Shown here in pieces: positions 3,901 through 29,972 of a stretch of 64,000 nt of DNA; position 1 is the stretch's first letter, and the number at the start of each line of letters is the position of its first letter. The position numbers and the translations under genes were made by a program. Under the pieces are notes generated by a model that saw only the letters and a program-made list of their open reading frames with translations, was not told the origin of the DNA and ran no database searches. The stretch is from Physcia stellaris. Its lineage: Eukaryota; Ascomycota; Lecanoromycetes; Caliciales; Physciaceae. The stretch covers positions 1-64,000 of the forward strand of contig JABSSW010000001.1 of the NCBI GenBank assembly GCA_018902385.1, written 5' to 3'.

Positions 3901-4010
3901 GCTGTTACACTATCTGTATTAGCAACTTGAAAGGCATGGTCCTTTGAGCTACTTACAAAGGCTATCCTGGAAGTTACCTTAGATACTGTAAAGACGAGAA
4001 TTCAGAAGAA
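901..4010. other. Gene-free subtelomeric sequence
   Basis: I recognise no intact gene here. Short open frames exist on both strands but lack family motifs, good start contexts or consistent splice sites. Small local duplications are visible: a TGGTGTAAAG-containing unit of about 22 bases twice near 2250-2295, and a CTAGGGGAGGC unit twice near 3230-3265. The stretch is probably decayed subtelomeric DNA. Confidence 0.5.
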
Positions 4011-5144: not shown

Positions 5145-5264
5145 TACCATCCACTACCTACACGCTGCTCGATTTCCAACGGGTGCTTGATGGAGGGGAA
5201 AAGAGACCATCCTCTACCTACACGCTGTTCAGTACTCAACGATTGCTTGATGGAGGGGTTAAAG
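5145..5264. repeat. Two-copy 60-bp tandem repeat
   Basis: The phrase ACCATCCWCTACCTACACGC occurs at 5147 and again exactly 60 bases later. The rest of the unit (CTGNTC, CAACG, TGCTTGATGGAGGGG) also matches. The period is a multiple of three, so in one forward frame it reads as a 20-residue repeat (STYTL...LDGG). This could be the trace of a repeat-containing coding region, but no complete gene surrounds it. Confidence 0.75.
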
Positions 5265-5411
5265 ACGAGGATTCGGCAATGAGCGCAGTGTTGAGTGGCA
5301 CCTCTTGGAGTCTTACAAGATGCTGTTGGAGAAATCCTCTCCAGCAGGGGGGTACATAATACTTGCGGCTGCTTTGCTTTGCTGCGGCTGCTATGATGTG
5401 ACCCCTGCTGG

Positions 5412-5640: not shown

Positions 5641-6718
5641 CTTCACAATGGGGAAGAAGGGGCTTCTAAGCTTGTACCTTGGTGTGGGCTACACAAGCAT
5701 ACACGTCTGAGGTAGTTTTTCCTCGGTGTTCTTGTTGCTGGGAAGAGCAGGGAGTTCAGGCAACTCTGCTTCGTCTCATTAGCTTGAGTCACTGCGCTCG
5801 GGTTGTGCGAGGAGTATTGAGTGCATCTTCGAAGCTTCGCTTCGCCATGATTACTGTGCCAGTGAAGCGTTTCCGGCGGGCCCAGTGCACGATTCTCTGC
5901 TTCTTTTTTCCGCATGCCTCTCGTCTCATGCCTCGATGGCCAATGCCTGCTTGTCTCTTACTTCCCTTGTAGAACGACTTGAGCTCTCTCAAGCTTGATG
6001 TGATCTCCCATTCTCCCATCGAAATTTCGAAGTAATCCCAACGGACTTCACTGTCTAGCGATGCTCAAGGCAGCAAGACCCTGTTGTCCATGAAGTTCAA
6101 AGTATATTGGCTTGCTTGACCTCGGCGATCGGCTCCGAAGTTCCAGCCCTTTTTTCTTGCTCGACTTCCCCACGACTCCTTCCTTACTCTACACTCAGCT
6201 GCAGCTCAACCAGAACCTCGAGTCATTGCGGAACGAATGGTTGCGATTCGGGGGCAGAGCATTGGGCCTGGGCAGTCTGTCTCTGTCTCTGCCACCGGTA
6301 GCCGGAATCACCGGTACTACTGAGGGTTTCTGCCTTTGGCCAGCGTCTCCGGATGTCAATCGACCGCAATGGCTCGAGGAACGTCCACATCGTATTCTCC
6401 ATTCAAGCCTACCTCAGATGTCAGCTTCCACCTGTCAGTAACAACCGAACCAGACAAAGCAGAACGAGAAAGCGTGGTGCGTCTCAGCCGTTGCATGCTC
6501 CCACCTCCACCCAACAGAGCGAGCTGACAGCTTCGGCAGCATCCACCTATGCAACGATCGGCATCTGCGACTCTCCTAGACTACATTTTTCCATCCCTAC
6601 ACGATAGAAAATGCTGACAGCTTTCGCAGAGCCTTCTACCCCAACCTACAATTCACCAATGGCTAATAGAAAGAGATGGGCAACCTCCGACACCACTACT
6701 GGACAAGCTGCATGTTCA

Positions 6719-7031
6719 TGAGATAGAGACTCGAATCTCTGGCTTTTGCTGGAGGGCTGAGAAGTCAACTGGCATCGCGAAGCTTCGGCCTGCTGTCGAC
6801 CTTGATGTTTGGCAGCCTGCAGGTATACGGGACAGAGACTCGAAACTCTGGCTTTGGCTGGAGGGCTGAGAAGTTCTACGACTTTGCAAAGCTCCGGCGT
6901 CGCTCCGTTATCTTCCTCGATGTTTCCACGCAATCGCCCTCGATGCTTGTCAGCCTGCAGGTACGGGATAGAGACTCGAAACTCTGGCTTTTGCTGGAGG
7001 GCTGAGAAGTCCTACGACTTTGCAAAGCTTC
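6719..7031. repeat. Three direct copies of a ~70-bp core
   Basis: A core starting GAYAGAGACTCGAA and running through CTCTGGCTTTTGCTGGAGGG to a TTTGCAAAGCTTC-like end appears at about 6721, 6831 and 6967, with spacings of about 110 and 136 bases. Copies two and three share nearly all of the core; copy one has diverged in its second half. The intervening sequence also shares GGCAGCCTGCAGGTA. No gene is visible in it. Confidence 0.8.
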
Positions 7032-8300
7032 AACGCCTCTACATTATGGTTCGCGATCATCCAACAACATCGTCATGGACATTCTGGGTATCGCGTCATT
7101 GAGGCTGATAGACATTAATATTCCCTGTCATGCTGGTGGAAGCTGCTGATCTCTGGCAGAGACTACCCTCGTCCGATCGTATCAGTACAGCCAACCGAAT
7201 TGTCCAGAGACATGATGCGCAGGAGATTCTCAGGCACTTGTTGGAAACTGCATTGACATCCATAGGACTTTCGGGCTTGACCCAGGATCCCACAAGATGA
7301 GTATTGCATTGAAACTCCCCCTGATTTTTTGTATCCGTTTCCACAAACCATCTCTGTACTTGGGAAGAAGATCTTTTCATGAGCTGATTGCAAACTTACC
7401 TTCAAGTATCCCTTCAATTAGTTCCTGACGAGCTTGGTCTCTTTCCCGGGATGACGCTGCCTCAGGGCTAACCTAACGCGCATCACCTTGTCCACTGTGC
7501 ACTTGTACTACTTGTGGTCCACAGTTTGGCAGTGAGGCAGTACCTGTACTGTGGCGGTCGACATAGGTGGTTTCTATTCAGCCATTGCAGGCGCTTGCTT
7601 ACACGTGACAGACGTATTTTCTCGAGCCTCAGTTGGGCAGTCTAGGATGCGAAGACCAATCCCAGACGAAGACATGGCTGGGAGAGGCGTAGAACTTCTT
7701 TCCTTGTCCTTTGTGGGCGCGCGATTGAACGCTACTAACTTCTACGCAGAAGCTGTGTTGCATTTCTTCTGCGATCGCCACCACCGTAGCCTACCCAAAC
7801 ACTGATCTGCAGGGTTGTTTCGCCATCATCGATAACGAGTGCCAGACACATATACTATACTTCAAAAGCTAAAGAACATCAGCAGAGGTGATTCACACAG
7901 GGAGATATGTTCGTCGGCCATACACCTCGATTCTGACGGGATATCTAGCGCCCCATCCCTTTGATTGTTGACATAGAGCAGAATGGGTGCACACAGAAGT
8001 ATCATCTACCACACTGATGATGCCTGCCATCTGCCATACCCTCAAAGCTGGATTTCGGTAAATTCCTGGAGTAATTTCGCCATGGTAGCCAACGCGTGCG
8101 CACCCTTGTCCTTGCCGCCAACGACAGCACCACTCTCTGGTTTTCTATTCCCCGTCTGGCTGTTTGGCTGACTGCGATGGCAATTCTACAATCCGTAGGC
8201 TTTTCACGCCGTCGAAGCTTACTAGCACACCGCTTTTGCATGTCCGTTCCCCTCTCAGACCCTTCCTTCTCTGATTAAACTGATTCTTCTGACTCTTTGA

Positions 8301-8670
8301 CCGAAGCTAAAGCTCATTCGCCTGATTGCTAGAACAATAACATACCCTGGGTGTGTGGGCCGTAATCTCTAGCAAGCAGTATGCTCACGGGGATTAGACC
8401 AAACTGTCAACGGCCAATCTGGAGCTGCCACTATGCCAAAACACACTCCACCTGTCTACTCCCCGCGCCTATTCGCCAGAGTCTCCTGCCGGACTGAAGT
8501 TTGTACGCTGAAGAATGACCATTGTGGCGTGAATGGATAGGAAAAGGAGAAACGAAAGATGTAGAAACCAGAAGCTCGGATGGGAGAGTCGCCTTCCAAA
8601 ATATAGGCGTGCCGAGCCTCAGCCACTGCAATTTCGTCTCATTTGCTTCAGCACCCTGATGCAGCCAGCC
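8301..8670 (-). repeat. Dispersed subtelomeric repeat, copy 1
   Basis: Read on the reverse strand, this begins with a CAGGGTGCTGAAGCAAATGA-like sequence and ends in TTGCTAGAACA...GCGAATGAGCTTTAGC. The same order of landmarks occurs at 11042-11371 (+), 12217-12586 (-) and 13239-13545 (+). Copies differ by substitutions and small indels. The family is unknown; a short non-autonomous element is one possibility. Confidence 0.75.
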
Positions 8671-11041
8671 GAGCTTTCTAGCGTATGTCGAACCACTCGT
8701 TGGCTTAGAGGACTTCCCTTCCCTCTTCATGTAGACCACTCATCTCCCATTTTTGGGCACTCTCCTACTGTTCCAGTTTGAATAGCTGCAGAATGTGTAC
8801 AACAGCGGCGAGCACCACCTCCTTTGAGTCACTCGCAGTAAATTTCATCTCTCTGTACTTGGGAAGTACTCAACGCAAGTATCTTCTATTCCGTGGAAAT
8901 TGACTTTAGCCACCCCGTGCCTTTCAGTATGCTATCGAAAATCAGATGTTTTCTACCATCCTAAGGTAGTGACCGTCTCTGGCGTCGTTTTTCCTGCGGC
9001 TGGTAAAGTCCACAATGGCCGGGAATTACATCACACCGACTGGGTCGCCGCTATCTGAATCTTTAAAGGAACGCAGTTCTGTGTTCAATACGACTTCATA
9101 CCAATTGCCCATGCAGCATTAGCGGTGAGAATGTAGATGCAATGCCTACGAAGACTTACCACTTCGGGAACAAAACTCCCCACTGGAGATTTGTATAGGC
9201 CGCTTTTCGCCATACACGCTCTCCACTAGCAGAAGAACTTGCATCCTGGCTGTACGTCTTGGGCGGTGCAGTGAAGTACTCGCTCTTCTTGGTATCTGGA
9301 AGTAAGTCATCTCATACTCAAGCAATCGCACCTAGCTAATCTTGTCGGTCGTAATCTCCTTATCCGGCATTGACCCAGCCATACCATTCGCGACGGAGTC
9401 GCCACCAGTGCCATAGCTCAGTGGACCCCTCATGACATATGTATTTGCGACTTTGGGTATACATTTGGTTGATGACCATATTCAGGGTGCAGGATCACAG
9501 AGTCTGGGTTTATCCATGGGATCTCCGCGCTTGGTTTATGACCAGAGCTTTGACTATGGCACAAAATCAACGAAGATTTGAAGCCAGCATAGTTCAAACG
9601 CCAACATTTTGAATCTTCCGCCACGCCATTAACCGTAAGTCCAGAAACCTCACCAGCTATGGTGGAATTATAGTTGACCTCAGCGATAACCTATGTCGAA
9701 ACACTCCTGGCGTGCGGAAGGATGGCGATGCCATGATTGTGGACAAAACTTAGCAGCCTGGTGGCTCAACTTGAAGCGTTCCATGGTCTGTGTGCACTTT
9801 ACACTAGACTACTGCGAGCTGCTGGGACAAGTAATCCTATGAACGAGGCGAAAAGTAGCTCGACATTGTGGAGACGGCACACGGCGAATCTGCTTTGGAA
9901 GGGCATGGCAAAAAAGATGAGGCGATGTCCTCAACCGGTTAAGATAGACATCGAGCTGACCTCGCGAGATAGAGCTGCCTACATTTATCGAAGCGCCACC
10001 CTGAGCCATAGTGTCAGCACCAACCCGATACTTCTCTTTGAGTATCTTGATTAGCCTATACCCTGGGCTGTTTACCGTTTTGAGAGCCTTCGTAGCGAGC
10101 TGATCGTCGAAAATGCGGAACACAGTAACGCATTTCCTCTAGGTCAACGTCGGGCTGTCTGGGTTCTCGAAGTCAATCTGATAACTTGCTAATTGACAGT
10201 ACAGTAACTCTGTTGCCATAAGCTGCGGCACCTACCGCTTACAGCTCGAAAAGCTCGGTGAGATTCCCAGTAGGCCATCTATGTATAGTTTGCATGTGGT
10301 TAAGAGACTTTACACAATACAAAGGGCTTGCGAAAGGAGGATGGTCTTTATCAAACGCCAGACATGGCACTATCGGAGCTGAAGTAAGCCTAGAGTCCGC
10401 CAGCAGTATATCCGGATGGCCTGCGACAAGTGCCTAAAGAAAATCGCCACTCCTTGCCAGGGCATGGAGTAGCCATACCGCTCAAGATTTGTCAAAGTTG
10501 CTTATACCTCAGTAGGTGCTGGTTCCGCTGTGCTATAGCAAGGTCTTAAGATGACCGACATTTGATTTCACGACTGGAGAGCCCCATCGGTGTAGGGATT
10601 GATTGCTTATTGTCCTGCCGAGGTTACATTAGTTGGAGAATAATGGTCCCAGGAGGTTTGCACTGACGTGAACAACCATGGGTATGTTTCGAAACGAGCA
10701 AAGGCCGAAGTCGAAGAACCCTTGCATGAGGAGAACTTACACGTAGATGTCTTATCCCCAGTCTCACCGCATGCCCTGCTTAGTGGGTGGGACGGACATC
10801 ACTCCAGGCTCTTCCACTTACTTCGCTGATAAGCATGGGACGACCTCCCCAGGGCATCCACTGGTGTATCTAAGACAGCCAGAAAGAGATGTTCTAGAAA
10901 GATGGGGAAGAGGAGAATCACCCGGAAACTGATCAAGTCGAAGACTCCGCAGAGATAGATCGGTATTATGGATAGACCAGTCCCCATTGTGAAGTCCATC
11001 CGCCGTTCCTCAGATGGAGCAAGTTTCCCTACAAAACTCGA
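8671..11041. other. Gene-free subtelomeric sequence
   Basis: Nothing in this interval is supported as a gene or RNA. Open frames are short, lie on both strands, and show neither domain motifs nor convincing splice patterns. Confidence 0.45.
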
Positions 11042-11371
11042 CTTGCTGGACCAGGGTGCTGAAGCAATGAGACGAAATTGCAGTGGCTGGGGCTTGGCAC
11101 GCCTATAGGCGACCTTCCCCTGGTTTCTGTATCCTTCGTCTCTTCTTTTCCCGCCCACCTACGCCTCGATGGTCGTTCTTCTGCGTATCAACTCCACTCC
11201 GGCAGAAGATTCTGTCGCATAGAGAGGGGGAGTTTGTTTCACAGTCAGTTTGGGCCGTTTTGGTTCACTGTGGGCTGCTGCTCTTGCTGGGAGACCACCG
11301 CCCAAACACTCATGTCCATGTTATCCTGTTCTAGCAGCAATGAGGCGAATGAGGCTTTAGCTTGGGGCCTG
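11042..11371 (+). repeat. Dispersed subtelomeric repeat, copy 2
   Basis: This copy runs from CTGGACCAGGGTGCTGAAGC to the GGCGAATGAGGCTTTAGC end. Shared inner landmarks include the phrases ATCCTTCGTCTCTTCTTTTC, CGATGGTCGTTCTTCTG, CTCCACTCCGGCAG and GGGGGAGTTTGTTTC. It is the copy whose two ends are easiest to define. Confidence 0.8.
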
Positions 11372-12216
11372 CTTTGGCCCAAATTGCGGGCGCCATAACA
11401 GTACCGATATACCGCGGATGTCCTATCTACTTCAAGAAGACTTGAAGCTACATTTCCTGAACCAAAGCTATAGAAGCTCATAGCATGAACCCTCACGGAC
11501 ATATTTTGGGAAACTGTCTCTTCGAATCGTTCAATCGGCCGGTTGACCTTTGGATGAAAAAGAAGCATAATCATCCCCTGTATATGTGGACTTGGTGACT
11601 TCAAGCTTCCGCGGCAGCCTATTGAAAGACTAGAAGTATTGCCAACATATGATTGAGTATTGTACTACTTCGGTGGTTAGGATCCGTTAGTGACGATGGA
11701 CACAGCCTGCTGAAGCCTTCTCGTTGCATTGCATCTGGCCGTGCAATACTTGAAAAGAGGCGAAACAGCTCAGGCAATTGTGGACAGCACCGCGCTTCTC
11801 CTGGATCCATCAATGGGCTCTCTGCTTCTGTGGCTCCGGACTGCGCACGCTGTCGCCTAAATGTCGTTTGCGGATGTGGGGCAACGGGTATGCAGAAGGT
11901 ACGAGCTATCCGTATATCCTATCGAAGCCACTCAGGAAAGCTTTCGAGGATGATGACCACATGATCGCACAGAATGGATTGACCATGGACCGAAGGCGCC
12001 ACCAAAACCATCGTGCCTTGCGTTTGGGTTACAGCTGCGATTTCAGACGGCCGGGACATCCAGTATCACACTAACTTGCTTCTCAGCATAAATAACACCA
12101 TGCGACGAAGGTATCCGAATACCTTGCCTGAATGCTCTTGCCGATCGGGGTCGATTCTTCAAATGCTGGTGGGACTGGTGTCTTGGCGGAAGATTCAATA
12201 AAAGCTCTTGCAAGAC

Positions 12217-12586
12217 GAGGCTAAAGCCTCGTTCGCCGGATTGCTAGAACTTAGATACTATGTATGAGTGCGTGGGCGGGCGTTCTAGCAAGCAGTATGC
12301 CGACCGGGATCAGAACACGCCAAGCTGGAGCTGTCACTATGTCGAAACAAACTCCCAAAACCCCAAGACTCAAGCCGCAGAAGGAAGAGTCCATAGGCGA
12401 CGCTGGCTCAAAAAGCATAGAGCAGCCCAGGGGAATGCCGAAAGGGAAAGATAGTCCGTGATCTCGGAAAGAAGAGACTAAAGATGGAGAAACCAGAAGC
12501 TCGGGGGGGAAGGTCGCCTCTATAGACGTGTCAAGCCTCAACCACTGCAAATTCGCCTTTGCTTCATCACCCCGGTCCAGCCAATC
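12217..12586 (-). repeat. Dispersed subtelomeric repeat, copy 3
   Basis: On the reverse strand this copy runs from TGGCTGGACCGGGGTGATGA-like sequence to GGCGAACGAGGCTTTAGC. It carries a variant middle, with CTTTCCCTTTCGGCATTCCC where other copies have different sequence. Its orientation alternates with the neighbouring copies. Confidence 0.75.
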
Positions 12587-12707
12587 GAATTCTTTTCTTG
12601 CTTCTGAGGCAAAGACATCAGCCGATGAGATTGTGGCTCTATCAAGAGGTGTCGTGGTCTATCTTGAGTGTTGTGCAGGCTCAGTAACCCATACACTGGC
12701 ATTCCAT

Positions 12708-12754
12708 GGTACTCGTTTTCGCATTACCTCAGCTAACCCCTGAAAACGAGTACC
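12708..12754. repeat. 13-bp perfect inverted repeat (hairpin)
   Basis: GGTACTCGTTTTC and its exact reverse complement GAAAACGAGTACC are separated by 21 bases, giving a potential stem-loop in otherwise featureless subtelomeric DNA. It could be the remnant ends of a very small inverted-repeat element or chance. Confidence 0.6.
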
Positions 12755-13238
12755 GAGCCAATGCATGGGATACGTCTTGAAGGTGGCTTTGGGCATACAG
12801 TACTGGTTATTCCGGCCAAGTATCCTTCTTGAAGAGCTCAATCTCGCTGTGAAACTTTGATTCAGATATACTCGTGTACGAAAGTCGTCACTGCCTCGCT
12901 GCGCAAGTAGTAACAGCTTTGGGTCTGGTCGTGCCGATGGCCACGTAAGGCTGGAAACAGTGGAGATTTATGAGCAATCTGGATACGTGGAGAAAGTCAC
13001 TCACAGTCCTGAGGATACAACGGCTTCTTTGCAAGACTTTGCCCTACTCGGACCGATCCATGTATCGCTCTGTCATCCAGACATTGGTATTTATAGTCCA
13101 AGGACCTTCACTGAATCCGGACCACTTGAACCGGACACATCAGATCGGAACCGAAGCGTAGTCTCTGCATAGTACCGGGAACCAAATCTAGTTGTATTTG
13201 CGTCGTCAGACTTTACTGATGTCATCTGGTGCGACTGG

Positions 13239-13545
13239 CTGGACCAGGGTGCTGAAGCAATGAGACGAAATTGTCGAGTTTCTGGTTTCTGCATCCTTCC
13301 TCTCTTCTTTTCCCATCCATCCACGCCTCAATGGTCGTTTTTCTGGGTATCAGCTCCACTCCGGCAGGATATTCTGTCGCATAGACTGGGGAGTTTGTTT
13401 CGGCATAGTGGCAGCTTCAGTTTGGCGCGTTCTGGTAATCTGGTCTCCGTGGGCATACTGCTTGCTAGAAACACCGCCCACACACCCATTGTATAGTATA
13501 CTGCTGTTCTAACAATCAGGCGAAGGAGGCTATAACCCCTCAGGC
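13239..13545 (+). repeat. Dispersed subtelomeric repeat, copy 4
   Basis: This copy begins GGCTGGACCAGGGTGCTGAA and ends near GGCGAAGGAGGCTATAAC. It lacks an approximately 45-base inner segment present in copy 2 just after the ACGAAATTG landmark. It is the fourth member of the 8.3-13.5 kb family. Confidence 0.8.
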
Positions 13546-14674: not shown

Positions 14675-15655
14675 CTATCCCTGATACGGGTTATCTGGAC
14701 GTTCATGTGGGGGCATATACCTCCCATAAGAATTCCCTGGCAGATTGGGTCTGCCATTGTCATCAGCCGGGTTGTTGGCTGGAGACGTCGCGGCGCTGAC
14801 GGGCTCGGGAGGAATATCCTCTGCCTCCTCAACGCCCTCCATATTTTCAGTTCCGGCGGCTGCATTATTGCCGGAAGGGGGCCCAGTCCCATCGCCTTGG
14901 TTGTTGCCAGCACCAGGGTTTGCGGCGCCGGCGGCGATCTGATCATTTGCCTGATTTCCTGGTTGGGGCTGGCTAGACCCATCATTAAGTATTTGAATTT
15001 GCCCTTCGCGGGCCATTGTCTCCAGAGTCCGCCTGAACAGCTCTGCTATTTGAGGGTTGTTGATTGATATCTCCCCCCTTGTTCCTCCTTTCCCCTTCCC
15101 TGCCTGGCTCCCGCCAGCACCACCACGCTGACCACCTCGACCAGCACTCTGGCCACCCCCACCTCTCTGAGTGCCCGATTTGGACACTCGATGGCTACTG
15201 CCGAGGATGTTGCCGCCTCGGACTGCGGCCGTGACACCATTCCCGCCGCGTCCGCCGCCGTAGCCACCACCATAGCCTCCGTAACCCGCTGTATGATTAG
15301 GCAGGTAGTAGTAATTGTGGATATGCTGGGCACGCATTCCACCGGGGAAAGGGGAAGGGGGAACAAATTGCCTACCTCGGCCCCCTCCACGACCGCCACG
15401 AGACCGGGTGTTGCCACGGCCCCCACGACTTACTGTGCCCGCATTGTTGGCTGGCGGGCAGGCCTGGAGGGTTGGGTTGTGCCGGATGCCACATTGCGGG
15501 CAAGCCGGCCAGCAGTCACTGTCGCCGTGGTAGTGGTTCCCACATCGGGAGCACCTACCTCGCTTGACATTGCTGCCACCGGCAGCACCCCCCTCTAAAT
15601 TGTTATTTCCCCCTGGCGGGTTGGGGGGCATGCCTCCTGCTGCTGCGTTGGCCAT
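14675..15655 (-). CDS. CCHC zinc-knuckle, RGG-rich protein (unknown function)
   Basis: This 326-residue frame has a CX2CX4HX4C zinc knuckle at residues 35-48, followed at once by a second CX2CX3HX6C cluster (52-66). After these come long Gly/Arg-rich (RGG) tracts (about 78-190) and a Gly/Asn/Pro-rich tail ending near ERPDNPYQG. Zinc knuckles with RGG tracts usually bind RNA or single-stranded nucleic acid; that role is inferred. The chosen start is the first ATG, but splice-like signals upstream (15.66-16.0 kb) mean leader or N-terminal exons are possible. It lies divergent to the Ulp1-like gene and may be part of the same set as the chromodomain, AAA and Spo11-like genes. Low-complexity composition makes homology calls unreliable. 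Confidence 0.7.
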   Translation of the reverse strand: MANAAAGGMPPNPPGGNNNLEGGAAGGSNVKRGRCSRCGNHYHGDSDCWPACPQCGIRHNPTLQACPPANNAGTVSRGGRGNTRSRGGRGGGRGRQFVPPSPFPGGMRAQHIHNYYYLPNHTAGYGGYGGGYGGGRGGNGVTAAVRGGNILGSSHRVSKSGTQRGGGGQSAGRGGQRGGAGGSQAGKGKGGTRGEISINNPQIAELFRRTLETMAREGQIQILNDGSSQPQPGNQANDQIAAGAANPGAGNNQGDGTGPPSGNNAAAGTENMEGVEEAEDIPPEPVSAATSPANNPADDNGRPNLPGNSYGRYMPPHERPDNPYQG

Positions 15656-16872
15656 CCTGTTACCCTTGTATTAGCGGTGGAAGACATGGGCAAGTCATCG
15701 TAACGGTTGCGCTTGGTAGGGGACTTGCGAAGAAGGTTCGTGGACTTACGTACTTGATGTTTGACTGCGGGGACAAGTTAGCACACAGACATTCAAAACC
15801 ACGATGAAGAGGTAACATGGAGATTTCGCAGGCCGAAACAATCATGGGCAGATGGTCATTTGTGGCTTCAGACCATAAAAGCATAGGTGGAATGTCTCTT
15901 GCCTCGTCTAGCGGCAGTGATCAGAGAAGAGACTTACTCACAGAATTGGTAATTGACGTTGAAGATGTAGAATGTAGGTTGGTTACAGTTCTGCTAATAC
16001 AAGTCAGCATCAATATGCCACCCACGCGATTAAGGTACGTTCCTTGGTTATGTCAATTATGGTTGAAGGAGAGAAAGAGAGAGGGAAGTGTGGGCAGCAA
16101 ATATCATCGGTCTTATCTTGATGGCGCGCCACGCTAACCTCCTTCTCAGGAAGCTAGGCATCGGACAACACGGAGGAGAGATAGTGACGTCAATCTCACG
16201 GCTATTAATCCAGGACTTGGTAAGGTGAAGAGTCAGGGTTCCAAGAGACAGAAGAATCCGGAAGTAGGATTGGCATGAAGCAGGTATAGTTCAATTTATC
16301 TTTGATGTGCTATCTATGGTATGGATTCGGTAACAAAACATGAAGACTGGACGATGGCTCTGATCAAAGGGAGACTAAGCATTCTCTCTGCTCACTGATA
16401 GCTACTTTGCCATGTTCCAGATGCATTGGGATATTGCCCGCTATGATCATAACAAACACCAAATGTTAGAATCATCCCAAGTGCAAATGAAAGCTCGAAA
16501 AGGAAGCTCCCTCGAAGAATGTTGGAACCTCTAAGGGTAGATGCTCTGGCAAAGTTCTGTCTTCTGTACCTCAATCATTGGATGATTTCCCGTATTCTGT
16601 CTTCCTCTTAGGAGGAGCTCGTGAAAGAAAGCAGCTAGATCAACATCGGCTTCCTCAAGTACCAGGATATGAGCAACGGATAGGCACATGATTGATGGCA
16701 AAAGGCATCTGTCTGAAAGTCACATGATCCGGATAAGATCAGATATCGAGTGACGAGCAGAATGTCCCAATCAAGTCCGACGCGACGCGCTCTTCTCGCC
16801 ATGTTCCATCATATCCTCTCACTGTCGATGCCATTCAACATCTCGTGCAGTCTTTGATACAACCTAAGCACA
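15656..16872. promoter_or_regulatory. Divergent intergenic region with possible leader exons
   Basis: About 1.2 kb separates the leftward zinc-knuckle gene from the rightward Ulp1-like gene. On the reverse strand several intron-like segments are visible: GTAAGTCCACG...GCTAATACAAG just upstream of the zinc-knuckle ATG, and GTAAGTCTC at about 15936, preceded by an exon-like piece reading NCNQPTFYIFNVNYQFC. A pyrimidine-rich tract near 16050-16080 may mark the transcription start. I could not join these into one consistent frame, so they may be untranslated leader exons. Confidence 0.4.
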
Positions 16873-18455
16873 ATGGCAGAACCTAGCAAGTTGAGTAATC
16901 CCCTCCCTCTGCCCAGAGGTCGTAAGGAACTGGAGTCTGGACAAGAGCCAGAACTGCTGACTATCTGGAACAATGTCAATACCTGGTATGATACCGGGCG
17001 CAAGACAGAGAATGGTACGTAGTCTGGACACAAGCACCTCCCACTCTATCTGGCTGAGCATTTGACCTTGGGCCCCAGCGCTGAGCATGACTTTGGGCTT
17101 AAGTAGAAGCTGATCGCACGATAGGGCTTGATCACTTCGCTGGCCCAATTTTGCTGGGTCTCAAGGTCATTCGCAATAAACTGGTAGGAAGGCTCGAAAC
17201 CCCCCAAGAAGATGAAGTCGGACTACGGGACCTTCTCGCCAGTGCCGCTGCTCGGGTCGCCGCCGCTGCTAAGTGGCTTCTGGAGAAAGTGCCACACCTT
17301 GTCAAGGGATTTAAATCCTCTCTTGCTATGACGGTATTTGTCGGCCGGGCGGATCTTAAGAAGCTATTTCCACCCGAGAAGAATTGGGGTAAATCAAGCA
17401 AGGCCCAGCAAGTCACCTTGCCCAATGCAATCGAGCGACTTCACCACTGTTTGGGGATGTGGGAGTTGGTTAAGATCTTCATTGCGACGGATCCCGATCC
17501 AACTGTTATCAAGGCAGACGAGGTCAGGCGTGCTATAAGAAGCTTGGCCAGTCAGATCAAGGTTCAGCTTCCAGAATCCGGACTGGCGCAAAAGAGAGGT
17601 TTGTCCGGACAAGGAGCAACTCCACGGCGACCTCCTACTAGCTTCCTAGGCGCCCAGAAGACTGCGCCGACAGCCTTTCAAGGAGCTGGAAATCAAGGGA
17701 GGAATGAACCTGCCCCTCCGCAAATCACTGCTGACGAGATCATAACAAGGTTGACTGTAAGCCAAGCGCAGCAGGTGCAGTTTTACACTCGCTACAACCC
17801 AAAAATCAATCTCGTGCCATACCAAGGCCTGACGGGCAGCCCCGTTCAAGTCAGAAGCGTTGAACTGTCTACGCTGTTCAATAATGGATGGCTCGACGAC
17901 GCCATCATTGATGCATACCTCAAGCTGGTCTGCAACAAGGGAAATGGGCTGGAGGGAGAGGTAAATGTGCGACAGGGTTCACCTAAATGGCATGCTTGGT
18001 CGGTCTACTGGGATGGTTCCGAGGCAGGTGTAACATTGTCCTGGCCACCTAATGCCTACCCACAAGCAAAGGTGGAGGATATTGAGCATCATTTGATTCC
18101 ACGTCATGGAGAGAGCCATTGGACGTTGTTCCACCTGCACAAGGCTGGTACTGGCTGGAGGGTGGTCTTCTACTCGAGTTTGGATGGGTACCGAGATCAA
18201 GTGGATCAGCATTGGCCAGAGATCGCATCTACTTTGATGTCTATCTCTCAGGGCTGGCAGCCTGGCAATATTGAGCCGGAGAAACCAAAGGTCCAGCCCA
18301 TACAGGGCAACGACTCTGATTGCGGAGTCATCATACTCTGCATAGCACGCTGGATGGTCGAGAACTGGCCTCTCAATACCCTGAGGGCTGAAGACTGTCC
18401 AAAACTCCGTGATCGCATGATTGTGGAGATTGAGCGTTGGCAACTTCACTCATAA
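16873..18455 (+). CDS. Ulp1-type (C48) cysteine protease
   Basis: There are two exons, 16873-17014 and 17125-18455; the intron is GTACGT...ATAG. They give 490 residues starting at an ATG in good context (CACAATGGC). The C-terminal 200 residues match the Ulp1/SENP SUMO-protease fold: LFNNGWLDDAIIDAYL substrate-binding start, catalytic His in SHWTLFHL (about 379), Asp in YSSLDGY (401), Gln in PIQGNDSDCGV (441) and nucleophile Cys (447). All catalytic residues are present. Known family members cleave SUMO or related modifiers from proteins, mainly in the nucleus. The N-terminal 230 residues are not recognised. Ulp1-like proteases also travel inside several DNA transposon families, which matters here because of the unusual neighbours. 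It converges with the chromodomain gene. Confidence 0.85.
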
Positions 18456-18743
18456 CCTAGTGGACTTGTTGCATCGTCAATAGCCTGACGAGAGCTTTGA
18501 TGCAGTAACCATAGCCGGGCTGCTGGATAGTAGAGCATAATAAATCACGCAAGTGTATCTACCATTTCTGTCCTGTAAATCTGCCTATCACCTGTGATTC
18601 ATGTTCTCGCAAAACCGGCTACGACGATGTCCATCATGTAGTCACCTAGTGAGCATGCCAAACTCTGTAGAGAGCAGAAGGAAGTTTCATTGCTATAGAA
18701 CAGGTACAAGCAGATGCGCATGATTTAGCAATCACACATTCTC

Positions 18744-20655
18744 TTAAGCATTGCCCCTGCCTCTGCCCCTTCCTCTGCCTCGAGCTCGAGATCCGCCACG
18801 GCCACGACCACGACCACGACCACGACCTCTGCCACGAGATGAAGATGCGGCTAATGTCAACTCGTAATTACGGATTGCATCAGCATCAACATCGTCGGCT
18901 TCGACCCAGGAGGGCTCTGACCCTTCCTGTTCCCAGTCAATCTGATACCAGGTGACATTGTCATCGTCGACCTGTTTTCCGATAATGCCCTTGATGGCGA
19001 AGGATCCCGACGCATCAGATTGGGCTGGACTCTGGCTGCTGTCTACCGGGCTGTTGGTAGACGAGTCCTCATTGTCCCCAGTCAGGTTATTGACCGGGTC
19101 ATCATTGGAGCTCTGGTTATGAGCATCCAGCTGTAGTTGTTCTGCAAATTGCTCAGCAAGCTTTGCTTCACGTGCCTCTTGGTGGCGCTGCAATTTCTCC
19201 TGCCTCTTCCGCGCCCTGTTCGCTGCCTTTGTTCCTCCTAATGTCGGCCCAGAATTAGCAGATACTTAGTCAAAGATTGAACTTATCGACCAGTGCAATT
19301 ATCCCATGGTCTGGTGATGAGCGGTGCTAATTTTTACAATCCAACAACAGATCTACGATTACCCGACATGGGGCAGGATCAGAAGATGATGTTGTCTTCA
19401 TGCCGTCTTCATATGCTTTGTGCCAAACACGGGTAAGAGTATTGTCATATTGGGTGCATCGTTGGCCATGGGAGGCAAGATAGCACCACACCAGACCATG
19501 GATACTGTCATGAAGTAGAATGACCGATTCGAGTAGCAACTCGCAGGCAGTTGAGAGGGCATAACATACCTTTGACGGGCTTCGCCTTGATTGGGAGGCT
19601 GCTATGGCGGAACTCGGTCATTTTTCCCGACATCGACCTTGTCAATGGCCTCCCAGGCTCGGCAGGCATGCTGTCGCTCTCCCCATCTTCGCTGGCTGGA
19701 CGTGGCGGACGGATATTCTCGTGCCCAGAGAGCCTTAACCACTCAGCGGTCGCTAGATAACCAGTGAATCTCAAGGTGTGGCGGCCGCCTGCGAGCTCCA
19801 CGATGTTGCGACCAACGACGGCAGAGGCCTGGCTGCTCTGCGGACTCTCATTAGCCACGTTGCCCTCATTTGGGGTCTTTGTAAAGTAATTGCGGTATTT
19901 GAACCACCTGTCTGGCATAGCCAGCGTGACATTTTCGACACGACGGAGCATCGCCTTTGCATTTCTGATCTCGCGCTCTTCGTGCGCCCGGAAGTATATC
20001 GCCCAGTAGTCTCCCTCGCCTCGACCCTTTGTAGCGAACTTGCTCTTTGGCTTTGGGTCAAGGTGAATGTCCATGCTTCTGGACTGGTCGAAAAGGCGAA
20101 CGCTGACGAGATGCTCGTCGTCGGGAATAGTAAAGTGTTGGAGGATCTCGGGCGACGGGTCATGATGTACTGCTGCTTTCTCAAGCCTCAATGTCAACCC
20201 CTCGAAATTGCCTTCTCCGACAAGGGTGCATCGCTCCCCTGGCTTATCATCAGAGTACTCGAAGATGGTCTTGTAGCCAAGACCGTTCTGGTACTCTTTC
20301 GAGCCGCAGCGTTGAATTTTGGAGACTTCTAAAAGCGCCAGGCATTAGCTTGATGCATCCTCTGCAGACCGAAGCGACTAGCAGTAGCCACCAAACGACG
20401 CAGGCTGATGAGCTCAATGGAGTTTCGGTGCGCTTCCAGCAAGCAGTCGACAGATTACTTACCTGCAGTCCAGTCTCTATGCTTGTCGGCTACTGATGGC
20501 TGGCTCTTCGTGAGCCGTTTTAGGGCCTTGCTGCTCAGGCCTTCCTGTGGGAAGCGAACGCGGCCTTGGGCCCTTCTGCCATCGGTAGGCTTGTATGTAG
20601 TTGCAGGCGGATCCTGAGTCGCCTGGGTAGGGTGAGTCGTTTGGTTGTCCGACAT
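18744..20655 (-). CDS. Chromodomain protein with RG-rich tail
   Basis: Three exons on the reverse strand (20655-20463, 20328-19570, 19237-18744) join in phase to give 481 residues. The second intron is 332 nt and could hide a further exon. Residues about 397-445 resemble a chromodomain: FAIKGIIGKQ, an aromatic YQIDWEQ strand, then SWVEADDV and IRNYEL. The tail is almost pure Arg-Gly. The middle region (GLGYKTIFEY to YWAIYFRAHEEREI) is conserved-looking but unrecognised. Chromodomains bind methylated histone tails, so a chromatin role is inferred. The gene is divergent to the AAA ATPase gene, with only 317 bp between the start codons, which suggests shared control. Chromodomains are also found in integrases and transposon proteins that target heterochromatin. 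Confidence 0.75.
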
Positions 20656-20972
20656 TATGGAGTAGATGTAATAGATTGAGTAGTGCAGTAGATATAGTAT
20701 ATTGAGTAGAGGAAGAGAAGGATAGAGGAAGACGGAGATGGGAGAAAGAGATGATGGGATACATGTATCGTCCGGACGCGCCAGTGCCTAGCGCGACTTG
20801 CGGTGGAGTCGATGACAAATTGCTGCCAGATCGACGATAAGAGCAATGCGGTATCGAGCTATCCTCAGTCAGGCTTCTCTTGTTCAAAGTTGGTCCAATT
20901 TCATCAATACTTACTTCTACATATGCTGAACCTGCTTCTCGGTGACAGGAATCTAGCTACAAATCAACCAAG
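20656..20972. promoter_or_regulatory. Short bidirectional promoter region
   Basis: This 317-bp gap between the start codons of the leftward chromodomain gene and the rightward AAA ATPase gene must hold both promoters. It includes an AT- and purine-rich stretch near 20655-20750 (TAGATATAGTATATTGAG, then GGAAGAGAAGG) next to the chromodomain start. No specific factor site is claimed. Confidence 0.5.
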
Positions 20973-22662
20973 ATGACCGACTCCAACAAACGGTCGGCAG
21001 ATTCACCAGATGACTTGCCACCAGTCAAACGCAGAATGCGATCAGATACGCCTGCGGCTGCCAGCAAGCCTGAACAGCCTTCGTATGTTTCAGACCACTC
21101 CCGAATCCAGATATGGAGATGCTAATATATATCGTATACAGTAAATGGCAAGAGGTCAAGCCATTTCAGCTGCCAGAGGAACTAGACGCATTGCGTCCAA
21201 GCGACATCTTGGGTCTGCACGGCTTTTCCCGAGACATTTACAACCAAGACCTATTCGCTATTTTCGCTGCATCTCCAGCAACCCCTAGCATAATAGCGAT
21301 GCACAAGGCCTGGGCGAACTATCGCAAGCCAACAGTTGAGGAGCTGTGGACATCCAGGTACCCGGAGACTGGGAGTAGGAGGCAGACCATCCCGGGAGAG
21401 GTTCTGCGCAAGGTCAAGACGCTGGAAATTATCGCCGAGAAGGCGACCAACCAGCGCCTTGTCGAGGAAGTCGAGAGACTGCTCGTGGATCATCTGATGC
21501 TCATGTGTGTCAGCTGGAAGACTCTGGAAGTACCAGAAAAGAACTTCCCCAATTGTCAAGTGCGCTTTGGTGAATTGGTCAGCAAATACGGTGCAGCGCA
21601 ATCCTCGCGACAGCGCAGTGCCAAGGTAAGCCAGATCGCGCCAGAAATCAGGTCGAAGGTTGAAAGTCTACGTATCGATGCGAAGAGCGTCGTACAGCTG
21701 GAACAGATCTCGGGGAACCAGCAAGCCAAGAAGGCAATCGAGACCGCAATGTTCATTCCAACGGAGGTTCCACATTTAGCCATTCCTGGAGGCGGTGCCC
21801 ATGGGATACTCCTGCATGGGCCACCAGGAACTGGGAAGACTCTGCTTGCTATGGCCAGTGCAGCGCAAAGCGAGCATTGCCGCGTTTATAGTGCGAATAC
21901 TAGTGACTTGATCGACAGGTTTCAAGGCTCAAGTGAGCAGAACATCGCGGGTTTGTTTGCAATCGCAGCTGACGACGCACCGGCCGTTATCATCTTGGAT
22001 GAGGTTGAGGGGCTCTGCCGTTCCAGAAAATCTAATTCCTCTTCCGAAGGCAGTGAGCTCAGAATTACTAACACCTTCTTAGCATCAATGTCGAAATAAC
22101 GAGGAGTGGTAGTCATAGGTACCACTAATCTACCATGGATGCTCGACCAAGCTTTTGGACGTCGTTTCCGCAAGATACATGTCGGATTACCCAACGAGAG
22201 TGAGCTTATTGCGATAGTTCAGGGCTGCTTGAAGAAGTGTCGCCACAGGGTCAGCCGAGAGCATATGGAGCAACTGGCCAGGGAATGCAAAGGCTTCACT
22301 GGTGATGCTATCACTCAAGTGATTAACGCTGCATGGGAAGAGCTGATTTATGAGATCGCATCAGCAGATTACTTTCAGGCTGTAGGTTTGACTCCTAGTA
22401 ACCAGATTCTGTGCTAATAACATTCAAGGTGACGTTGGAGGGAGTTGAGATGTTCCGCCCTTGTGAATCCACGTCAAACGGATCATTCTGTAAGAAATTC
22501 TCAGACTTCAAGCAAGACGGCATGGCAAACAAGGTCATACCCAGTGAGCTTACCATCGAGCGGCTCTTAGAACATGCTGTACCATTCAAAACTGAGGTCG
22601 CTGCTTCAATTGAAGCCAACGATAAGCACGCCAGATGGGCAAGCAAGCAGTTCTATGACTGA
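20973..22662 (+). pseudogene. Meiotic-clade AAA ATPase (katanin/Vps4-like) with one in-frame stop
   Basis: Exons 20973-21082, 21142-22381 and 22429-22662 join in phase and would encode 527 residues. The AAA domain follows a long unrecognised N-terminal region. It has Walker A GPPGTGKT (263-270), Walker B VIILDEVEG (Asp323/Glu324), sensor 1 IGTTNLPW and the arginine-finger segment FGRRFRKIHVGLP. The layout resembles katanin, spastin and Vps4, which remodel proteins as hexamers. One TAA codon at 22097-22099 falls between Walker B and sensor 1. CAA to TAA at a CpA site is what repeat-induced point mutation would cause, so this is probably a mutated gene; an assembly error or read-through is possible. 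Everything downstream remains open and conserved-looking, so the damage seems recent. It lies divergent to the chromodomain gene and upstream of the Spo11-like gene. Confidence 0.8.
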
Positions 22663-24679
22663 TACCACAACCGGATCAGTTTGACGATTCTCCGCCTTGA
22701 AATAACCTTCATGGCATGCTCTCCTTAGGGTAGTGAGAATTCCAGTCCAACGCATGGCACAGTAGCCGTGCTGCGTTATGTTCAAGCAATATAGACAAAT
22801 TATAGCCCTTCACGTGCCACAGTCATTTCCAAGTTCGATGTGATCACATCTCTATGAATATGCCATGTCTGTCCTGTAATCTGTTTGGTTCGGTGTTTCT
22901 GACCTCGCCTAGCCCGATGGCCCCAACATTCCAAACCCTCATTATACCGAGCCCGTACTTACGATGAAATCGAGTCTTTACCTCTACTATTGGTGAAAGA
23001 TCGGTGCTTTCATGGAGCAGAGAAGGTCAAAGGCAAAAAAAAATAAAGGAGTTTTGGACGGCGGAGGTATCGAACCCCCGGGCTTTCGACTCGCCGCTTT
23101 ACCGAAGCATCACGAACGATTCTAATCACTACCTTACCTTCGGCCAACCGCCCGGGAGATGAAATTTTCTTTGCGCTCCCTTATTATCATCCATATTAGA
23201 TACTACATGGAAAGAGCCAGGGAATTATAGGCTGGCGACAGCCAAGGGCTGTAATTGTTGGAGTGAGCCTTGCCCTATGCTACAGTCCGTTGGTTAGCTA
23301 ACGAGATTACTTGGTATTTGACAAGATCTCTCAACTGCCATACGAAGACTAGGACCTGATGATAGACTTTGCGGTAGACTACATGAGGAACTTACTGGCA
23401 TACAAAGACAATTTAAAGTCCAGTCTACTACTTTCTATCAACATTGCATCAAGGAATTAAGATGGGGAATGCACATGGGTCAAACGTATTTCTTTCGCAC
23501 TAGAATTGACAGGTGTCGCTGCTCGACACGAGGTCAAAGTTTTGGAGTTTTGAACCCTGCAGCTTTCAAGCGCTTCGACCAGATTGATTGGACGGCAAAG
23601 CGCAGATGAGGCACAGTTGAAACTTTCTCGGCACTGCAGGGGTTGGGAAGGGCCTAAGCGGCGGATCTGGTTCTTTACCACCATACTTTCCAGGGTTTTC
23701 AAGTAGACTTTTGGTGGCTAGCTATAGACATAAGAGCGGGCTTTGTGGGCCTTCATTTCTTCTAGACATTATCGCTTCACAAGGCTGGGGGCGTGCTTCG
23801 ATACCTCAGCGAGAGATGGCGCCAGCTTACAGGCCGCTTTTTGGTTGGCCTTTGAAGCCTTCCCGCACAGGTGGGTTTAATCTTCACCAATGAGGCCAGG
23901 ATCGAGTCGGGTCTCGAGGAAAATCATGTTGCAAGGATTTTAGCCACAAATTGCGAACGGAGTCTGTTTCTACATACCTCAGCCCTCAAGGCTGATCCAT
24001 TTTGACGCGGAGGCTCTATGATATTGTCGCAACAAAGGAAGAAGCATTCCAGGTGTACTCATTGCATCATTAGTACAACTATCTCCTTTAGCACGAAAGC
24101 GCTGTTGCCAAGGTCCAAAAATTGATGGATCGTCTCAATGGAAGCGGTTAAGATACTCCCTGATGCGTTTGCGAGGCCAACGGTCCTCTTGCACCACGTA
24201 GGGGAGAGAGATGACTGCCTACCCCGTACAACGACACCCCTCAATAAGCGATAGCTTTCCATTGTATGACACCAGGAATAAATAATAATTGCAAGCTATT
24301 GCTCGCCTAGGGGGTCAATTGAGAGATTGGGGGACGATGTTCCCCGTCAATGCGAGGACGCGATGCCGGCAGGCCTCACCTCGTCGCTGCCCTTCATCGG
24401 ATCAAAGCGAGGACTCTACGCAGTCCGTCTTGAAGTAGATATATAAAGCCCAAGGGAGTATACGCTACAGCAATCTCTTCTCCACTACCCATATGCAACT
24501 GAATCTCTTCGTCCTCAAATTTCCTTATCGAGTGTACTAGGAGGGGCTTCGGTCTCGAACATACCCTAATCTTAGCGTCGGTTCGGCGCATCCCTACAAC
24601 GTTTGATTTTGTGTCCCAAGTTCTCTTTCCTTTTGCCAACACTCTCAACATATATTGCCATCAAGATCTGTTGACCATC
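22663..24679. other. Intergenic stretch between AAA and Spo11-like genes
   Basis: This 2.0-kb gap holds a tRNA-like sequence on the reverse strand (23056-23153) and otherwise nothing I can support. Short frames on both strands lack motifs. The last 100 bases (TTCTCTTTCCTTTTGCC) are pyrimidine-rich, as expected just before a fungal start codon. Confidence 0.5.
23056..23153 (-). tRNA. tRNA-like sequence, perhaps a degraded tRNA-Ser type
   Basis: On the reverse strand the ends GGGCGGT and GCCGTCC can pair as a 7-bp acceptor stem with G-U pairs. TGGCCGAAGGTAAGGT resembles an A box and D arm, and GGGGGTTCGATACCTCC is a good T arm with B box. At 98 nt it needs an intron or a long variable arm. I could not fold a proper anticodon arm (a candidate AGA lies in TTAGAAT without a paired stem), so a decayed tRNA or tRNA-derived relic is likely. 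No CCA is encoded. Confidence 0.45.
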
Positions 24680-26642
24680 ATGTCTTCCGAAGAATTCATT
24701 TCAATGGACTGGCGCTCGGCGCCTACAACTAGCGAAATCATCGAGCGGATAGAGAAACTGCTCTATCACCTGGACCAGAACGGCTCGGTGAGTCTGTGCC
24801 TCTCCAATACTACTGCGAAAGGCGCTCTGGTGTATCGCAGGGTCGATGGCAATAAAATGCTGCAGCGACGCATCAAGCAGGTAAGTGTACCCTTAGGTGT
24901 TTGTGTTTTGTGTATCTCTGTTGACTTAACGATGGTAGACTGTGCGCCGCGGGACTACTCCCTCCAATAGGGATTATTTCTATCAGCTTTATCAGCAGGC
25001 AAGAACACTCATGGAAATGCAATTGGAGCAGCAGGCTCTCAAATCTCGCTTTATCGCCTACAAAGATGTAAGTAGTACCCGTTCACACGGAACACCCTTA
25101 AACACCTTGGCAAATTGGAGGAGGCACATTTTATGAAGGATCATCCAATACCACAATGTTAGACTGTCAATGAAAAATCGTGTGTTGTGCATGAGCATCA
25201 AAGCCCAGTTTTCCGAGCGCCTGATGGGAGTATTTCGGACATTGGCTGCGCTGTCCTCTACTCTCAGACCGTAATATCGCGCATCGTTCGTGTGCTTGAT
25301 CACGGACTCACAACTTTGCAAGATTAATACTAATGGACGCAGGTCGAACCAAGTGTCGGCATGAAACTTGACAAGACAAAGCGCTTGACATTAGATCTGG
25401 CGCTAACAGTCAAGATCCACCCAATAGCATTGGGTATCAAGCGAGAAGTGAGCAGCCAGGTATCTGTCCCGGCAAACATCGAGATTGAATCTCGATGTAT
25501 TACTGATATCTTCCAATACAATGATCGCATAAAGCGATCAATACCAGAGGATGAGTATTCTCGGATGAATAAGTTGACCTTCGGCACGCGCCCGGTTCCG
25601 GAGGTCATAATTGATCTCAGGGTGACTAAACCTCATAAGAAAAGCAAGGTTGACGCCGTCCTTGTGACAGAGCATAGAAATCTTGACGAGGTCCTACTCA
25701 AAGATGGCGCAGCAGTAGAGCACGTCATCATTGTTATGACTGCGGGCTTCCCTGACTCCGGAACGAAAGAGTTCCTTCATCTTCTAGCAATGGACCAGGA
25801 ACTCGCCAAGGTCCCATTTATCTACTTTGGAGATCATGACATAGCTGGTTTCTCCATATTCCAGGTCCTCAAGTATGGTTCAAAGACTTCCGCTTGGGCG
25901 AATGCGATTTCCGTGTGCCCACAATTAAGGTACGCGGGTCCTACCAAAGCTGATTTTCTTAGTTCAGCGTCGCTTTTTCGCCCTAGCTGGCAGGTGGATT
26001 ACAAGACCCATCACCCTCACGCGACAGATGCACAGGTGACAGCTGCCGCCGATGTATGGCAGAAGAAGACCAAGCGAGCCATGAACGGTAAGCTTACAGC
26101 CCTCAAGAAGAAGGACCAGGACACAGTGAGAGGCTTCAGAAGTATTGGGTGGCTTGAAGATGAAAATCTCATCCGTCGCGAAATAAGGTTGATGGAGAAG
26201 GAAGCAAGCGTAAGTACACAGACCCAATGTTCACACGAAAGGTTCATACCCAATCTTCCCTTCTAAATCGTGCCCATCCACTCAACCGTCATTAACTCCG
26301 GAATAGGTTTTCCGTCTTGCGAATATGGCTCAAGCCGGAACAGCATACGTGCGACAATTTGTAGAAGCCAAAATTTCAGAGCTTTGCTCAACAAGGGTGG
26401 ATGTGCAGCAACCGCTAGCACGCCCTTTGTCTCCAATAACCCAGGTGTTCAGAGACGTGAGTAGCCAGGTTGAAACTCAACCATATCTCAATGCCGTCAT
26501 GAACCCAGGCATCGTATCCAACAATCAGGGCGATAGTCTTGAGGTCATGGAAGAAGTCGTAACCAACAGCCAGGGCGACAGTCTCGAGATCATGCCATCA
26601 GAAGTGGCCATGAAAGTGGCTCTATCAGTAAACATGATTTAG
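24680..26642 (+). CDS. Divergent Spo11 / topoisomerase VI subunit A-like protein
   Basis: Five exons (24680-24880, 24939-25067, 25163-25270, 25343-26209, 26307-26642), all phase 0, give 546 residues. NRDYFYQLYQQ (about 77-87) matches the catalytic-tyrosine motif of Spo11 (yeast RDIFY), placing the nucleophile at Tyr82. A TOPRIM domain follows: VLVTEHRN with Glu256, then a GFPDSGTKEFLHLL segment, IYFGDHDIAG with Asp310/Asp312 and the family-typical LKYGSKTSAWAN and LRYAGPT. Spo11 makes double-strand breaks through a covalent tyrosine-DNA link. This protein is about 150 residues longer than usual fungal Spo11, has an unrelated C-terminal tail with near-duplicate NNQGDSLEVM/NSQGDSLEIM units, and sits subtelomerically beside protease, chromodomain and AAA genes. 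It is therefore more likely a paralogue or element-borne enzyme than the meiotic gene itself. Confidence 0.85.
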
Positions 26643-28642: not shown

Positions 28643-29572
28643 GTTGACGAAGAATGTCGCTGAAAATTTCGTGTTGAATTGAGGTGTGATCTTTCAGCTG
28701 CTGCAAAGGCGATGAAAAGATGAAACGATGAGAGATTGCTGACTTGAGGTCATTTCATCCATGCTTTATATCGACTTTCTGATCCGGAACACATGTTTAA
28801 GGTCTGTGCGGCAGCAAGATTCGCTACGAAATTTTCGTGGTGCAGTTTAGTGCAGAGCCTTTTCGTATGATTTGCATCATTGAACGCCTTGTCTGTGTCC
28901 TGAATACAAACTTTCCGAGACGAATGAGAAAAAGGTAAAGTCTATTTCCTCTTTTAGCAGTTAGCTTCCGACAGAGAGGAGTCTTGCGCAATAGATGGTG
29001 TCGTCGGAAGCAGAGATCGACAATGCAGCCTCTCAACCTATCTTTAGCGCCTAGAAATTGTTGCGATTCTCTCAATGATTGATTGCTCTCCGCACGTAGA
29101 AGGCGAAAGACGACAAGTGACTGGAAACTGGACAGCGCTAATGGCTCTGAAGGTTTCTGTATAGAGACTTTGGTGGTTGATCCGGCCAGCGAGCACCGCT
29201 CATGCAAGAAAACATCCACAAAGAGGGCTTTGCTGTGCAGTAGCATCGTCGAGTAGCTCTCTTACCTACGCGGTCGGGCTATGGAGTTGATCATGAAACG
29301 ATTCTTTAGAAGCGGATGAGCGAGAAACATGAAGTTTTGAAGAATGAGGAACAGAAAGGGGAAAACAACGGGCGGCCTTCCGCAATATAATGAAAGGTCC
29401 GAGCAATCATATTGCCCCTGGCCGTTGGGGATCCATGCGATTTCCCTGCATCAGCATCCCTGTTCAGCCGGCCGATCCAATATTCCTCCAAAACCTTATA
29501 ACTACTAATGCTCGATTTCGACGAGCCAGGTAATTAATTCGCATGTCGCTGTATTGATATTTTTAGTCATTC
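28643..29572. other. Intergenic stretch, no supported gene
   Basis: The longest frame (28824-29246, reverse strand) has no signal peptide, motif or splice support. The 3' end of the interval becomes AT-rich towards the inverted-repeat element at 29573. Confidence 0.4.
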
Positions 29573-29972
29573 ACCGAGGTGCATAATGCTAGAGAATCCT
29601 TGGCATCGAAAAATTTTAACTTTCTTTTTCTTTCGGCAGTTTCAGCTTTTGCTTAGCGATAATCCTGACATAACTCTGATAAATGCTGTCAAGTCGCACG
29701 ATTTTTCACTAAAAAAACGCTAAACTGAGTTTAAATTTTTGAACCAAATCCCTTCACGAGCTCATTATTTTCAATTAATTACAGCACACTCAATAATGAT
29801 TCAAATTTCATGAAATTAAATCATCGTATTATCAACAATGTAACATGTATTTGTACATTTTTCTGAAATTATACTATTGATTTTGAAAGTATGAAAAAGT
29901 TTTTATGTTCGCGAAGAAGAAAAAAATTAAAAATTTTCGATGTCAAAAATTCTCTAGCATTGTGCACCTCGG
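29573..29972. mobile_element. AT-rich element with ~50-bp terminal inverted repeats
   Basis: The left end CCGAGGTGCATAATGCTAGA and the reverse complement of the right end, CCGAGGTGCACAATGCTAGA, match closely for about 50 bases, through GAATCCTTGGCATCGAAAAA versus GAATTTTTGACATCGAAAAT. The element is about 400 bp, has a very AT-rich centre and codes for nothing. The right flank is TA and the left flank CA, so a TA target duplication with one mutation is possible, as in Tc1/mariner-type elements. Differences between the ends are mostly C-to-T or G-to-A, as repeat-induced point mutation would produce. Confidence 0.75.

Follow-up and report, generated by a model that had tools for sequence, protein, structure and literature searches.

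A five-gene set around a divergent Spo11/Topo VI-A-like enzyme as a candidate subtelomeric cassette in Physcia stellaris

The first 64,000 nucleotides of contig C1 of Physcia stellaris (Caliciales, Lecanoromycetes), hereafter the window, carry between positions 14675 and 26642 five adjacent genes, which encode a Spo11/Topo VI-A-like enzyme, a type I AAA ATPase, a Ulp1/SENP-type protease, a chromodomain protein and a zinc-knuckle/RGG protein. These five families were found together at three chromosome ends, and in part at a fourth, in a genome that possesses a separate canonical SPO11. The set is tentatively read, with slightly less than even confidence, as a conserved multi-copy subtelomeric cassette around a non-meiotic Spo11/Topo VI-A-type enzyme that would break heterochromatic ends and drive end-to-end recombination. 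That the five genes form a functional unit is probable. The five genes had been proposed in an earlier note on this DNA, and all of them proved to be real. The chromosome-end setting given there was likewise borne out by a telomere repeat array (CCCTAA, forward strand) at positions 4-96, so that the window is a telomere-capped end. C1 has 1,688,952 bases and the assembly searched (G000) amounts to 43.97 Mb in 147 contigs. The available part of PMC7513301 describes axenic cultures of P. stellaris from ascospores and an assembly of such a culture with 46.57 Mb in 184 scaffolds.

Spo11 is known as the maker of meiotic breaks and as a subunit of Topo VI. In P. stellaris, the winged-helix profile of this family (TP6A_N, PF04406) matches a single place in the genome, C27:94302, while the TOP6A-Spo11 TOPRIM profile (PF21180) matches seven, namely C27 with the best score, C1, C72, C17, C52, C24 and C16. 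Since PF04406 matches nowhere else and PF21180 scores highest there, the C27 gene was taken as the canonical SPO11. Six Spo11-like loci, the window's included, thus exist besides it, and the window gene is neither the only SPO11 in the genome, an objection that the earlier note had raised against itself, nor the single meiotic orthologue. The window gene lies at 24680-26642 on the forward strand, with exons at 24680-24880, 24939-25067, 25343 to about 26240 and 26307-26642. The last of these was added with the support of P0001, the P. stellaris protein G7Y79_00001g000050, whose sequence fits the Spo11-like exons of the window. Its product matches PF21180 at 2.4e-14, above the Pfam cut-off, and PF04406 was found in it neither by the profile search of the genome nor by the Pfam scan.

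The residues expected of an active enzyme are retained. In the MAFFT alignment, the motif RFIAYKD of the Spo11-like family falls on RNIYYKD of the canonical SPO11 of P. stellaris, which phmmer aligned to VRDIFY of yeast Spo11, a motif ending at residue 135; Tyr135 is the catalytic residue of the yeast enzyme. Tyr108 of the window protein is therefore the catalytic candidate, and a tyrosine occupies this column in 11 of the 12 rows that reach it, all but P0006, a protein with a gene model that departs from the others at this point. The earlier note had assigned catalysis to Tyr82 (RDYFY), which must be discarded, as a tyrosine is present in only 2 of 9 rows reaching that column. Tyr80 is a tyrosine in all eight family rows reaching its column but lies off the canonical tyrosine motif. 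The claim that the TOPRIM glutamate and two aspartates are kept was confirmed, with Glu220, Asp274 and Asp276 intact in 16 of 16 rows. The assignment of Tyr108 relies on the motif together with its place in the multiple alignment, since hhalign covered the TOPRIM part and not the tyrosine region. From these residues the enzyme is predicted to be catalytically competent. The tentative reading of the whole set would have it non-meiotic, and the balance tips slightly towards its breaking DNA.

The enzyme is thus a divergent relative of Spo11/Topo VI-A, as judged from its sequence. It resembles this family by its TOPRIM domain above the Pfam cut-off and by the aligned tyrosine, glutamate and D-x-D residues, but differs by the missing PF04406 match, a very long branch from the organism's own SPO11, an extra N-terminal part, a C-terminal exon and its multi-copy, subtelomeric occurrence. 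A TOPRIM similarity was also observed to JetD of Wadjet, a bacterial plasmid defence system (PF09983, 1.2e-06; PADLOC JetD, 2.9e-08). However, JetA, JetB and JetC are absent among the five window genes, whose proteins match other families or none in Pfam and, for four of the five families, in a PADLOC scan; moreover, the Spo11-like set is fungal. In parallel, no relative was found in two scans of viral and two of prokaryotic contigs, which does not fit a viral or prokaryotic contaminant.

Relatives outside this genome are few. The Spo11-like protein gave 11 database matches, among them P. stellaris itself and five lichen records of the Teloschistales, an order that was checked for Wetmoreana and that we take to be that of the others. 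A joint query with the protease and the chromodomain protein gave five matches; P0013 (Ulp1) and P0014 (chromodomain) each lie on a contig of 8,815 bp, presumably the same one. In the Spo11 tree, proposed in the earlier note as a check, the Spo11-like clade stands far from the canonical SPO11. Without an outgroup, the C72, C24 and C52 genes cluster (support 96) and are joined by Caloplaca/Pyrenodesmia proteins (76), apart from C1; with an outgroup, support is low (24-53 at most inner nodes). Given this grouping, the Spo11-like paralogues seem to predate the separation of Caliciales and Teloschistales, or to have been transferred.

The four partner genes lie upstream of the Spo11-like gene in the window. 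The AAA ATPase (20973-22662, forward strand; exons 20973-21082, 21142-22381 and 22429-22662) contains an AAA domain at 2.7e-27, above the Pfam cut-off. It shares the AAA core with Vps4 and p97/Cdc48, which together give its best PDB matches, but has an N-terminal region of its own, of about 200 amino acids, without Pfam match. Walker A and B, sensor-1 and Arg-finger motifs are present in the C1, C17 and C72 copies, and the C24 copy keeps all of them save RRF, which is replaced by SRF. The protease (16873-18455, forward strand; exons 16873-17014 and about 17125-18455, with an uncertain junction) matches Peptidase_C48 at 4.2e-06, above the Pfam cut-off, and its family profile matches SENP1 at 1.5e-09. 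It resembles the Ulp1/SENP SUMO proteases by this match to the SENP1 catalytic domain and by His, Gln and Cys, kept in five of five rows, two of them near-identical. The earlier note had listed Asp as kept too, but the corresponding position is Ser in all five rows, so that the set of His-Asp-Cys triad and oxyanion Gln is not complete in this family, which also has its own N-terminal part.

The chromodomain protein (18744-20655, reverse strand; exons 20655-20463, 20328-19570 and 19237-18744) has a conserved N-terminal domain for which structure prediction was uninformative (mean predicted local distance difference test score 30.3). The zinc-knuckle/RGG protein of 326 amino acids (14675-15655, reverse strand) has homologues at C17:6129-6518 and C72:26179-27276. 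The chromodomain and zinc-knuckle labels come from the earlier note and stood in part. For the chromodomain, the C72 paralogue passes the Pfam cut-off (7.1e-08) and the window copy does not (E 0.11). For the zinc-knuckle protein, Pfam gave nothing above the cut-off; its Cys/His pattern, composed after inspection of the three sequences, was found in 3 of 1818 open reading frames (ORFs) of at least 40 amino acids, one per complete cassette. A conserved 205-bp element (19299-19501), inserted in intron 2 of the chromodomain gene, was considered as a recognition site of the cassette and rejected, as it is a dispersed repeat with at least 42 matches (40 of 357 candidates scored).

The co-occurrence of the five neighbours, on which the earlier note had relied, was found at C1, C17 and C72. 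At C17 the order is Ulp1 (3204-1498, reverse), AAA (3777-5352, forward), zinc knuckle (6129-6518, forward, probably continued by another exon at 6670-7221), chromodomain (10658-8909, reverse) and Spo11-like (11279-12929, forward). At C72 it is Ulp1 (14515-13823, reverse, with its N-terminal part reaching about 15573), AAA (20825-19406, reverse, plus a fragment at 17535-17696), Spo11-like (22966-21565, reverse), chromodomain (23743-24858, forward) and zinc knuckle (27276-26179, reverse), the last match needing the family profile. The partial set at C24 comprises the Spo11-like gene (14569-12694, reverse) and the AAA gene (23329-24358, forward). Between these two lie tandem paralogous ORFs, 32% identical and without Pfam match (C24:18433-19443 and 21061-21921). 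Gene order is shuffled among cassettes and segment identity is about 24-59%. The chromodomain and Spo11-like genes stand head-to-head at C17, C72 and weakly at C24; in the window the chromodomain gene is head-to-head with the AAA gene. For the protease, the chromodomain protein and the AAA ATPase alike, the best family-specific homologues in the genome adjoin the Spo11-like genes at C17 and C72. Elsewhere in the genome, the protease and chromodomain searches gave only a remote match at C22 (2.8e-5) and a disrupted fragment at C7. When the 1818 ORFs of five places (four chromosome ends and C52, with C1 taken from 14 kb onwards) were compared all against all at E<=1e-4, only the five families and repeats were common between cassettes.

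This recurrence bears on one alternative, in which an old gene cluster was duplicated passively among the subtelomeres and its genes co-travel through exchange between ends without working together. Subtelomeric exchange is common in fungi, and C1, C17 and C24 have subtelomeric repeats in common, as would be expected. Yet five families and no others were kept at three ends despite the low segment identity and the rearranged order, and active sites were conserved, which makes this explanation quite unlikely.

The position of the copies was then considered. C72 begins in telomere repeat, C24 starts with sequence matching that next to the telomere of C72 (27 bp, 96%), and C17 begins in a repeat family that in C1 lies between the telomere and the cassette. 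In the window this family spans 8301-13537, with copies near 8.3, 11.0, 12.2 and 13.2 kb, and it matches C17:0.1-1.1 kb and C24:7.4-7.7 kb. Four of the six Spo11-like loci lie at most 26 kb from a contig end (P ~0.010, taking 17% as an upper bound for the share of the genome in such stretches). The Spo11-like loci therefore do not amount to a single fixed position away from the telomeres, and none of the three outcomes that the earlier note had named as refuting its reading was found. As to its question whether many copies lie near telomeres, several chromosome ends carry one, but these copies are not numerous, and they are old. The C52 locus is 42 kb from a contig end, where the final 595 bases have a G+C content of 0.26, as do the starts of C72 and C24, and no telomere repeat.

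Telomere-linked helicase genes are subtelomeric multi-copy genes of fungi. The window set resembles them as a coding family repeated at chromosome ends, but contains no helicase among its five genes and a DNA-cleaving family instead. A role like theirs is conceivable by analogy, and the cassette could then be a host system, a second Spo11 for the ends acting in telomere or subtelomere recombination or in meiotic end pairing. The subtelomeric position would suit such a system, as would the presence of the Spo11-like family in both Caliciales and Teloschistales, and so would coding constraint: five ungapped Spo11-like fragments elsewhere in the genome (at C16, C46, C6, where there are two, and C10) gave against the window gene a pooled pN (nonsynonymous divergence) of 0.064 and pS (synonymous divergence) of 0.317, with no stops. 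On the contrary, strong divergence, shuffled order, solitary or broken copies and an AAA frame interrupted in one copy fit poorly with an essential function. A host system is accordingly judged unlikely.

These five fragments differ from the window gene by 9-20%, and their sources were therefore other coding copies, which suggests turnover. More widely, short fragments of the Spo11-like, zinc-knuckle and chromodomain genes are chromosome-internal (C16:368413-368678, C46:145034-145177, C6:608401-608952, C10:331781-331918, C56:46910-47059, C60:167039-167466 and C7:655776-655928) and 80-91% identical where the DNA aligns well. The search with cassette DNA was swamped by the 205-bp repeat, and 39 of 346 candidates were scored.

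Fragments in such an insertion-like pattern, together with the shuffled order of the recurring set and a Spo11-like gene away from chromosome ends at C16, would agree with a transposon class with definite but unseen ends, in which the Spo11-type protein would be the transposase and the other four accessory. Chromodomain and Ulp1 modules are accessory in other elements. Nevertheless, the fragments are without element ends and cannot serve as a cassette signature, as an interior control region has two such pieces at C14. In addition, no terminal repeat common to the cassettes was seen in a cross-comparison of four ends, which left parts of C72 and C24 outside, no transposase domain was found in 23 proteins scanned, and the copies are few and old. 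Such a transposon is thus very unlikely, and the mobile element suggested by the earlier note is so far unsupported, mobility being unproven in view of the missing transposase and shared terminal repeats. Starship elements, as far as their partly available descriptions go, are also multi-gene elements of Pezizomycotina, but the window cassette is much smaller; the tyrosine-recombinase captain domain is not among the 23 proteins, a scan that did not extend to short ORFs and was not accompanied by a direct captain search.

Several observations weigh against the cassette reading. No partner resembling Topo VI-B was identified. The joint AAA/zinc-knuckle query matched P. stellaris only, among 8000 scored candidates sharing most words, and co-occurrence of all five is for this reason established in the P. 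stellaris genome only. The window AAA frame contains an in-frame TAA (22097-22099), around which the deposited model P0017 splices, dropping a stretch that is continuous in the C17 copy. At C24, Ulp1 is represented by a weak match to its N-terminal part (E 0.0021, 0.00082), the chromodomain piece is not significant (E 0.9, 0.36) and the zinc knuckle was not found. The C52 Spo11-like gene has no partners within the 19.4 kb examined (290.5-309.9 kb) and the C16 locus is a broken piece containing a stop, so that the five-gene set is not obligatory. Finally, the C16 fragment, the only one with introns, shows a noncoding divergence of 11/105, below its pS. Repeat-induced point mutation (RIP) was considered as the origin of the AAA stop and set aside, the composition not being RIP-like by the thresholds applied.

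Other features of the window lie apart from the set. A tRNA-Ser(AGA) gene (23055-23153, reverse strand), which contains an 8-nt intron, sits between the AAA and Spo11-like genes and is outside the recurring gene set. A repeat at 29137-29475 is also present at C72:15681-16021 and partly at 29843-29917 (identity 76-79%). An element resembling a miniature inverted-repeat transposable element, at 46927-47123, measures about 197 bp with inverted ends of about 32 bp and has 14 more genome matches of at least 184 bp.

In the mechanism that we infer for the cassette, the five proteins would act as a complex. The chromodomain protein would tether it to methylated-histone chromatin at chromosome ends, where the Spo11-type enzyme would make covalent double-strand breaks. 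The AAA ATPase may remodel or unload the complex, the Ulp1-type protease may trim SUMO and the zinc-knuckle/RGG protein may bind single-stranded nucleic acid. Gene conversion or break-induced replication, with another end as template, would repair the breaks and copy the cassette from end to end, and this would account for the presence of several subtelomeric copies that are old, shuffled in order and devoid of terminal repeats. Spread of the cassette by recombination is possible but rather doubtful. The cassette may be selfish or may serve its host. A selfish chromosome-end element, in which a chromodomain-aimed Spo11-type enzyme would break cassette-free subtelomeres and repair would copy the cassette-bearing end, that is, homing without transposase or terminal repeats, is considered somewhat unlikely.

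All five components fall within known families or are similar to them, and to our knowledge there is no system with this gene set. The combination as a system looks undescribed as far as the open-access literature goes, in which no account of such a set was found, subscription papers and preprints lying outside this scope; PMC6652019, in its available part, deals with algal Spo11 genes. If the cassette reading is true, P. stellaris would have a second, divergent Spo11-type family, multi-copy and placed at chromosome ends, which would mean either an unknown route by which a genetic element spreads or an unknown way in which the fungus manages its ends. Both would be directly testable, given the ascospore cultures of P. 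stellaris described in the available part of PMC7513301.

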